Source of the DNA: Anaeromyxobacter terrae
GTDB lineage: Bacteria > Myxococcota > Myxococcia > Myxococcales > Anaeromyxobacteraceae
Reading direction: 5' to 3'
Assembly (NCBI RefSeq): GCF_022690685.1
Contig: NZ_JALCYY010000006.1
Coordinates: 61,135 to 125,134, forward strand
DNA: 64,000 bases
Part shown: positions 53,497-57,615 of the stretch, in pieces
Position numbering within the stretch: position 1 is the stretch's first letter
How the letters are laid out: every line of letters starts with the position of its first letter
Translations under genes and position numbers: made by a program
Notes under the pieces: generated by a model
What the model was told of the DNA's origin: nothing
Seen by the model: only the letters and a program-made list of their open reading frames with translations
Databases searched by the model: none

Positions 53497-54759
53497 ATGG
53501 CACACGCGCCCGGCGTCAGCGAGTTGCTCGCCCCCCTCGACGGTCTGCTCCCGGACCTGGAGAAGGTCTACACCGACCTCCACGCGCACCCGGAGCTCTC
53601 GATGCAGGAGACCCGCACGGCGGGGATCGCGGCGGAGCGGCTGCGCGCCGCCGGGTGCGACGTCACGACGGGGATCGGGAAGACCGGCGTCGTCGGCGTG
53701 CTGCGGAACGGCGACGGTCCCACCGTCATGCTGCGCGCGGACATGGATGCACTGCCGGTCAAGGAGCTGACGGGGTTGCCCTACGCCAGCGCGGTCACGT
53801 CGGTGGACAAGGACGGCAAGACCGTTCCGGTCATGCATGCCTGCGGGCACGACATGCACGTCGCGTGGCTGGCCGGCGCGGCGGCGCTGTTCGGCCGTAC
53901 CCGCGGGGCCTGGCGGGGGACGCTGCTCGCCGTGTTCCAGCCCGCGGAGGAGATCGCCACGGGCGCCCAGGCGATGATCGACGACGGGCTCTTCACCCGC
54001 TTCCCGAAGCCGGATGTCGTGCTCGGGCAGCACGTCATGGTCGGCTCCGCCGGCGTCCTCGGCTGGCGCGCCGGCGTCATGACCTCCGCCGGCGACAGCC
54101 TGCAGATCCGGCTCTTCGGCCGTGGCGCCCACGGGTCGATGCCTCAGGCGAGCATCGACCCGGTGGTGATGGCCGCGGCGACCGTGCTCCGCCTGCAGAC
54201 GATCGTCTCCCGCGAGGTCGCGGCGACCGAGGCCGCGGTCGTGACGGTGGGGGCGCTGCAGGCCGGCACGAAGGAGAACGTCATCCCCGACGAGGCCCTC
54301 ATCAAGCTCAACGTCCGCACCTTCGACGAGGGCGTCCGCGCTCGCGTGCTCGCCGCCATCGAGCGGATCGCGAAGGCTGAAGCGGCGGCGTCGGGTGCGC
54401 CCAAGCCGCCCGAGCTCACGCCGCTCGACCGCTACGTCTCCGTCCGGAACGACCCGGAGGCGACGCGCCGCGTGGTCGCCTCGTTCCAGCGGAGCTTCCC
54501 CGCCGAGCGCGTGCGGGAGGTGGAGCCGACGTCGGCGAGCGAGGACTTCGGCTGCTTCGGCGCGGAGTGGCACGTGCCCTCGGTGTTCTGGTTCGTGGGT
54601 GGCACCGATCCCGAGGCGTACCGGCAGGCCCGGGACGCGGGCCGCATGGGCGACCTGCCGACCAACCACAACCCGCGCTTCGCGCCGGTCCTGCACCCGA
54701 CCCTGCGCACCGGCGTGGAGGCAGCCGTCGCCGCGGCGACGGCCTGGCTCGCGCCATGA
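53497..54759 (+). CDS. M20-family amidohydrolase
   Basis: This 420-residue enzyme is of the M20D IAA-amino-acid hydrolase/AmhX/HipO-like group. Metal ligands appear in MHACGHDMHVA (His, Asp), FQPAEE (Glu) and GQHV (His). The dimerisation domain follows with SASEDFG near the C-terminus. Likely cleaves an N-acyl or carboxy-amide bond of an amino-acid conjugate. ATG 53497; an in-frame start 16 codons upstream is less likely. Confidence 0.92.
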   Translation: MAHAPGVSELLAPLDGLLPDLEKVYTDLHAHPELSMQETRTAGIAAERLRAAGCDVTTGIGKTGVVGVLRNGDGPTVMLRADMDALPVKELTGLPYASAVTSVDKDGKTVPVMHACGHDMHVAWLAGAAALFGRTRGAWRGTLLAVFQPAEEIATGAQAMIDDGLFTRFPKPDVVLGQHVMVGSAGVLGWRAGVMTSAGDSLQIRLFGRGAHGSMPQASIDPVVMAAATVLRLQTIVSREVAATEAAVVTVGALQAGTKENVIPDEALIKLNVRTFDEGVRARVLAAIERIAKAEAAASGAPKPPELTPLDRYVSVRNDPEATRRVVASFQRSFPAERVREVEPTSASEDFGCFGAEWHVPSVFWFVGGTDPEAYRQARDAGRMGDLPTNHNPRFAPVLHPTLRTGVEAAVAAATAWLAP

Positions 54760-55433
54760 CCGTCACCCGCTTCGCGGTCGACCTCGGCGTGCTCCCCGTG
54801 GCGCTCGACCTCGGCGGCACGTTCGTGTTCGCGCTCAGCGGCGCGGCCGCGGGCGTGAAGCACCGGCTCGACGTCTTCGGGGCCCTCGTGCTGGCCCTCG
54901 TGGCCGCGAGCTCGGGCGGGATGGTTCGCGACGTGCTCATCGGCGCCGTGCCGCCGGCGGCGCTCGTCGACTGGCGATACCTCGCGGTCTCGCTGCTCGC
55001 AGGCGCGGTGGTGCTCCTCTGGCACTCCGCGGTGGAGCGCCTGCGGAACCCGGTGCAGCTCTTCGACGCGGTCGGCCTGGCCCTGTTCGCGGTCTCCGGC
55101 GCTCACAAGGCACTCGCCTTCCACGTCGGCCCGCTCCCCGCCGCGCTGCTCGGCATGCTGAGCGGGATCGGCGGCGGCATCGTGCGCGACCTGCTGGTCG
55201 CCGAGGTTCCCACCGTGCTGCGCGCCGAGATCTACGCCGTCGCCGCCCTCGCCGGCGCGGCCGTGGTGGTCCTCGGGAGCGCGCTCGGAGTGCCATCCTC
55301 GCTGGCCACGGCCGCCGGCGCGCTCCTCTGCTTCGGGCTCCGCTTCATGGCCCTCCGGCGCGGCTGGCGGCTGCCCGTCGCCGGCGAGCAAGAGCCGTCG
55401 GCCGACGCCGCCAAGACACGCTGGAGAGCGTGA
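54756..55433 (+). CDS. TRIC/YicG-family channel protein
   Basis: This 225-residue UPF0126/TRIC-like protein has about seven helices in two repeats (FVFALSGAAAGVKHRLDVFGALVLALVAASSGGMVRDVL and a second with GLALFAVSGAHKAL...GGGIVRDLL). Homologues form cation channels. The ATG overlaps the stop of the M20 gene (ATGA). Confidence 0.9.
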   Translation: MTVTRFAVDLGVLPVALDLGGTFVFALSGAAAGVKHRLDVFGALVLALVAASSGGMVRDVLIGAVPPAALVDWRYLAVSLLAGAVVLLWHSAVERLRNPVQLFDAVGLALFAVSGAHKALAFHVGPLPAALLGMLSGIGGGIVRDLLVAEVPTVLRAEIYAVAALAGAAVVVLGSALGVPSSLATAAGALLCFGLRFMALRRGWRLPVAGEQEPSADAAKTRWRA

Positions 55434-55638
55434 CGCCGGGTGGCGGTCGAGGGCTGGGATCTCGCGGCGCCTGATCGCTCGAGAGTTCCGGAGCTCATCT
55501 GGGCGAAGAGGACGAGCCCCCATGAGCAAGACACGACGATGGCTGTCTCCGGCCACTTCAAGCCGGGGCTCATCAGCCGCGAACCGCGAGTCCGAGCTCG
55601 CGAAGGAGGCGCCCGAGACGCGACGCCGGAAGAAGCGA

Positions 55639-55941
55639 TCATGAGCGCGCGAGCGCCGATCTCACGGCCGCCTCGATGAGCAATCGCGGGGGCACGCCCG
55701 CGAGGCCGTACAGCCGTCAACCCAGGCCGACGTTCGTCGGCGGTTGCGGATCGATATCGCGGCCGTTCACGCGGATGGTCGGCGACCCTGGGAAGGAGAA
55801 CCGCGCGGCGTCCTCCGCGGTCGCGACCAAGGTCGTCTCGATCTCCGTCCCCGGCGCGCTATGCCGGACGACGTCCGCCACCAGCTCGAGCGCTCGCTCT
55901 CCGTGCCCGCAGGCGGGGCTCATCAGGACCTGGACCTTCAT
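55639..55941 (-). CDS. Thioredoxin-like protein with in-frame TGA (candidate selenoprotein or nonsense mutant)
   Basis: Seventy-four codons (MKVQVLMSPACGHGERALEL...RFSFPGSPTIRVNGRDIDP...NVGLG) lead to TGA at 55717-55719. The same frame then continues with 25 more codons, RLYGLAGVPPRLLIEAAVRS..., which read like the expected C-terminus of this small thioredoxin-like family (about 100 residues; GLxCRLY, then GVPPR.LIEAA). Family members as I recall them have Cys where the TGA stands. A 7-bp hairpin with a 6-nt loop sits 13 nt after the TGA, in bacterial-SECIS geometry. Two readings compete: selenocysteine, or a single-base nonsense mutation of TGC/TGT. If the TGA is a true stop, the CDS ends at 55717. 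Confidence 0.6.
55684..55703 (-). promoter_or_regulatory. Candidate bSECIS hairpin
   Basis: On the minus strand TCGCGGG-CGTGCC-CCCGCGA forms a perfect 7-bp stem with a 6-nt loop whose second base is G. The loop begins 20 nt after the in-frame TGA. Known bacterial SECIS elements have the apical loop within about 16-37 nt of UGA and a G in the first two loop positions; this fits. GC-rich DNA makes chance hairpins common, so the support is limited. Confidence 0.45.
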
Positions 55942-56238
55942 CGACGGTGAAGCGTACCACTCTCAACGGGAGTCGCCGGCGTGTTCATGGTTCCGCGGTC
56001 TCGGTGAGGGCCAACAGAGCGGCGAGAGTGTGGGCGAGCGCGTCGCCGAACCAGCCGGCAATCTCGCGGTCAGGCACGCGTCGCTCGAGGGGGTCCCGGC
56101 GCGACAGCGCGACAGGCGCCGAGCGACGCGCCATGCGCTCGGCCGCGAAGATGGCACATCGTGAAGTTTTCCTGCACGGGCCATCCGCGATCGACCTCTT
56201 TCGAGACCGCCGGGCCGCGCGTAGGTTCTCGTCCGACC

Positions 56239-57615
<1,377 letters not shown>

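Follow-up and report, generated by a model that had tools for sequence, protein, structure and literature searches.

A gene on the minus strand of Anaeromyxobacter terrae contig NZ_JALCYY010000006.1, at positions 55639-55941 of the window (the whole stretch of 64,000 nucleotides that was analysed), is predicted to make a single-domain thioredoxin-fold selenoprotein of the DF family, with selenocysteine (Sec) at an in-frame TGA, a reading to which we assign a probability of about 0.95. We favour it because the TGA column is conserved among relatives, the codons of the hairpin that follows are synonymously frozen, and the Sec machinery is present in the genome. As the hairpin is weak evidence when taken alone, the case for Sec rests on comparison, that is, on the TGA, the Cys column that it occupies and the codons downstream. 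The gene and its two recoding features are as follows.

55639..55941, minus strand: predicted DF family selenoprotein gene, 100 residues with read-through, matched by NF049942 and modelled with AlphaFold2
55717..55719, minus strand: in-frame TGA, predicted selenocysteine 75; 8 genomes have TGA at this column, most other relatives Cys
55684..55703, minus strand: predicted bacterial SECIS hairpin, 7-bp stem and 6-nt loop CGUGCC, codons +5 to +10 the same in 8/8

Reading the frame places the start ATG at 55941-55939 and, after the internal TGA and 25 further codons, the terminal stop TGA at 55641-55639, all on the minus strand, which the first-pass annotation had left unnamed. The first-pass annotation had described a frame running past a single TGA for 25 codons to about 100 residues, and this stands: the read-through product has 100 residues (MKVQVLMSPACGHGERALELVADVVRHSAPGTEIETTLVATAEDAARFSFPGSPTIRVNGRDIDPQPPTNVGLGURLYGLAGVPPRLLIEAAVRSALARS), and plain stop-codon reading of the gene yields a form of 74. 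A plus-strand reading of 55639-55941 was rejected, as no family-like frame exists there. We found neither a promoter-like site nor a clear operon partner for the DF gene. The frames on either side of it resemble those of a membrane channel, an aldo-keto reductase and an amidohydrolase-type peptidase.

Assignment to the family depends on the sequence beyond the TGA. When the gene is read through with Cys at the TGA, it scores 81.4 bits against NF049942 (cut-off 70) over positions 1-96 of 96, but when cut at the TGA it scores 65.0 bits and falls below the cut-off; a six-frame search in which the stop is left unread gives 73.6 bits. The residue encoded by the TGA falls on the conserved C-terminal Sec/Cys column (C/U-R-x-Y) that marks DF membership.

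With the NCBIfam profile NF049942 we searched 195 genomes from the phylum, each species being represented by a single genome, and obtained matches in 23. The TGA occurs at the identical column in eight genomes (the window's own, four of the same genus and three of the same family), in each case within the context GURLYGLAGVPPR. Eight DF genes were found among the 24 genomes of Anaeromyxobacteraceae, every one of them with the TGA, and in Myxococcota relatives from beyond the family this column is mostly Cys. The alignment of homologues that had been recommended as a check thus bears out the earlier proposal that the TGA stands at a Cys position (GLG-U-RLY). Three relatives (L033, L034 and L042) have S, D and Q, respectively, at the Sec/Cys column and retain the N-terminal Cys11. 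A scan of genome contigs with a single DF protein as query returned no match; with the DF alignment as query, it returned six Sec-form loci. The Sec-form records include, by name, Anaeromyxobacter oryzae Red232, A. oryzisoli SG63 and A. soli SG29, all three of the window's genus, and three Myxococcales MAGs. At one locus (L036, in G036), TGA and hairpin are kept and the N-terminal half lies in another frame, a frameshift of the gene or of its sequence.

The Sec-form proteins share 55-80% identity with the window protein. In the tree they occupy a single branch among the Cys forms (support 92/98), many deeper forks being weak. Since the Sec forms share this one branch, their distribution would fit one Cys-to-Sec change in an ancestor of the family Anaeromyxobacteraceae.

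The predicted hairpin (stem TCGCGGG / CCCGCGA, DNA loop CGTGCC) begins after a spacer of 13 nt from the TGA, and the first-pass description of a 7-bp stem with G at the second loop position is borne out in every detail. Published limits for bacterial SECIS (bSECIS) elements are a loop of 3-9 nt, a stem of 4-16 bp, a folding energy at or below -7.5, a G within the first two loop positions and a UGA-to-loop distance of 16-37 nt (PMC13188914). The SECIS check that had been advised, carried out by hand and with a script, places the hairpin within all of these limits (loop 6 nt, stem 7 bp, G at position 2, distance 20 nt, energy -17.7 kcal/mol). An Rfam search of 54000-57500 gave one chance match and nothing else.

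We nevertheless rejected the hairpin as stand-alone proof of Sec, because equally good hairpins are common at the GC content of the window: 103 of the 1100 TGAs in this GC-rich sequence (9.4%) precede a bSECIS-like hairpin of at least 7 bp, and when the same peptide is recoded synonymously, one as long or better arises in 19% of cases. Covariation in the stem is likewise uninformative among the Sec forms, because the stem hardly varies.

Stronger evidence comes from the codons that make up the hairpin. From +5 to +10 past the TGA, six codons (Leu, Ala, Gly, Val, Pro, Pro), each at least four-fold degenerate, are identical in all eight Sec forms, compared with a codon shared in 58% of pairs at sites elsewhere at which the amino acid is invariant. 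A Fisher test comparing codons +5 to +11 of the hairpin with other sites that are invariant and highly degenerate, with counts tallied by hand, gives p = 6e-4. Codons +1, +2 and +4, directly ahead of the hairpin, are variable. That the hairpin is synonymously frozen in all eight genomes speaks with unusual clarity for a bacterial SECIS element in the DF family.

A search for selA, selB, selC and selD, also proposed by the first-pass annotation, found all four in the window's genome. The scores are 531.9 bits for selA, 394.6 bits for selD and 75.4 bits for selC (tRNA-Sec), to which ARAGORN assigns the anticodon TCA; selB is above its cut-off, with two pieces of one frame covering the model at 306.7 bits together. 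A second tRNA (L003, G000:C35:27551-27636) scores 49.7 bits against the tRNA-Sec gathering threshold of 47 and is probably an ordinary long-arm tRNA, e.g. Ser or Leu. The selD gene itself (L019, G000:C101:3623-4552) has an in-frame TGA in HGAG-U-ACK, and three formate-dehydrogenase-like genes (L050, L051 and L054) have one in NQAR(L/V/I)-U-H, followed by a predicted downstream hairpin that contains a GGTCTGG-type sequence. We take both motifs to be well-known Sec sites. With selD and three formate-dehydrogenase-like genes carrying TGA at canonical Sec sites, the window's genome decodes Sec. Across Anaeromyxobacteraceae, selA is present in 24/24 genomes and selB is over its cut-off in 18/24. 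A 2006 list of 11 selenoproteins for A. dehalogenans has no DF entry by name and calls two of its members 'thioredoxin' (PMC1794560).

The first-pass annotation had named a nonsense mutation as the main alternative to Sec. On that account, or on the related one of a sequencing error, a Cys-type gene would have acquired an ordinary stop and would be truncated or decaying; the TGA is indeed one base away from Cys codons, and a hairpin like this one is by itself common at the GC content of the window. Such an origin is nevertheless very improbable given the same TGA and a conserved downstream frame in eight genomes, the synonymous freezing of the hairpin codons and the sel genes of the genome, and because eight genomes keep the TGA, mutation and error can be regarded as excluded in practice. 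The earlier reading of the in-frame TGA as a Sec codon is, by the same evidence together with the Cys column and the bSECIS constraints, supported.

A functional 74-residue protein ending at a true stop, with the downstream conservation reflecting another role of the DNA, has in its favour that the short form is still family-like (65.0 bits) and retains Cys11 and the cis-Pro motif. Beyond the TGA, however, agreement with the family profile continues up to its last position (1-96), and Cys/Sec, Arg76 and Tyr78 are conserved; the C-terminal helix is part of the predicted fold; and the TGA occupies a Cys column in a genome that decodes Sec, so that we hold this possibility to be no less remote than mutation. 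Least probable of all is read-through of the UGA by near-cognate decoding with Trp, Cys or Arg in place of Sec: UGA read-through is known in bacteria generally, but this genome has the full Sec machinery and uses TGA at Sec sites in selD and the formate-dehydrogenase-like genes, relatives have Cys at the column, and the bSECIS hairpin is conserved. Sec at position 75 is accordingly the reading that we carry forward, and it confirms a 100-residue gene where plain stop-codon reading gives 74 residues.

Two further features define the predicted active site of the product.

55909..55911, minus strand: codon of the N-terminal Cys11, which takes the active-site position of thioredoxins (CGHG); nearly invariant and, in the model, located after strand 1 and before helix 1
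55780..55785, minus strand: Ser53-Pro54 of the GSPT motif, with G52, S53 and P54 invariant in 23 relatives

AlphaFold2, run on a 23-row alignment, models all 100 residues with a mean pLDDT of 95.2 and a pTM of 0.86, and predicts with high confidence that the product is a complete thioredoxin fold in which helix 86-99 derives wholly from sequence past the TGA. Structure comparison retrieves many thioredoxins at Z 8-9.2 (80-83 residues aligned at an rmsd of about 2.5), a designed thioredoxin at Z 9.6 and, tied with these at 9.7, fold-switched KaiB, which is also thioredoxin-like; Foldseek E-values are weak (best 4.6e-3). We take Ser53-Pro54 to be the cis-proline loop of thioredoxin folds. In the same alignment the Cys/Sec75 column is nearly invariant, D62 and R76 are invariant, and Tyr78 is conserved.

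Bacterial Sec insertion is established as the work of SelB and Sec-tRNA(Sec), directed by a hairpin. For this gene, SelB with Sec-tRNA(Sec) would bind the hairpin loop and Sec would be inserted at the UGA; without selenium, translation would stop at 74 residues and leave the fold incomplete. The full-length product would be a thioredoxin-fold oxidoreductase with CxxG for CxxC, its Sec75 placed in the loop that joins the central sheet to the last helix. This loop lies near the active site in thioredoxins, which makes it plausible by analogy that Sec75 and Cys11, the active-site Cys of CxxG, form a selenol/thiol redox pair; we judge the odds of this to be roughly even. A point against our overall explanation is that the relatives that lack the C-terminal Cys (L033, L034 and L042) keep Cys11. 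For the substrate, we tentatively suggest a partner that is oxidised or has a metal(loid) bound.

Metal(loid) redox chemistry is, by analogy with relatives, the best lead to what the DF selenoprotein might do, because of the fusions of the DF domain to ArsC-like and MerC domains and the neighbourhood of one plasmid copy, which adjoins an ArsR/SmtB regulator and is near a copper ATPase. The DF domain forms the N-terminus of longer ORFs at L024, L033, L034 and L038 and at L032, L035, L041, L043 and L044; the fusion at L024 was matched to LMWPc (PF01451, ArsC-like) and that at L043 to MerC (PF03203), and the remaining long DF ORFs are similar by sequence to these two. LMWPc (PF01451) is the fold of one arsenate reductase class. 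Two plasmid DF homologues carry the annotation alkylmercury lyase, and around one of these two no mer genes are listed. Beside the window gene we found no metal(loid) gene neighbours like those of the plasmid relatives. The most specific version of this lead gives the DF selenoprotein a dedicated, Sec-based role in metal(loid) redox or transfer: its Cys11-Sec75 selenenylsulfide pair would act on bound arsenic or mercury, and it would be the stand-alone Sec counterpart of the ArsC-like- and MerC-fused DF domains. We consider this version doubtful.

Compared with known systems, the product shares with Thioredoxin_3 (PF13192) and the MJ0307-type small thioredoxins (TIGR00411) the thioredoxin fold, the N-terminal active-site Cys and the cis-Pro motif, but differs from them in having CxxG where they have CxxC and in placing its second redox residue (Cys/Sec) far downstream, right before the last helix. 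Profile scores against these families are low: PF13192 gives 16.3 bits (E 0.01) for the 74-residue form, below its gathering score of 24.8, and does not match the read-through form at E-values up to 0.1; TIGR00411 gives 18.4 bits, below its curated cut-off. With the alignment as query, 1fo5 is matched at E 3e-7. The LMWPc/ArsC-like and MerC fusions have N-terminal regions of about 100 residues that are DF homologues, and differ in their extra C-terminal domain from the window gene, which is a bare DF domain with Sec.

The closest comparison is with the DF family itself. The name 'hypothetical protein DF' was given in the deep-Sep study to a protein of Desulfosediminicola flagellatus (Thermodesulfobacteriota; WP_419720682.1) described as lacking TGA homologues in other Sec-utilising bacteria (PMC12013277), and a 2026 review places 'hypothetical protein DF' under NF049942 (PMC13188914). 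Judged by its sequence, the window gene is a new member of this known selenoprotein family in a second phylum. NCBI gives NF049942 the name 'DF family (seleno)protein', and its curators may perhaps already be aware of more Sec forms. Our comparison with the D. flagellatus protein is by its published description. The window gene shares with the family the full-model match, a TGA at a conserved Cys column and a bSECIS-like hairpin downstream; the difference is that Sec had been reported only from D. flagellatus, whereas here it characterises a conserved form of Anaeromyxobacteraceae (Myxococcota), a lineage with known metal reduction. The DF selenoproteins, so far described from one species of Thermodesulfobacteriota, would thereby gain a second lineage in which the Sec form is conserved.
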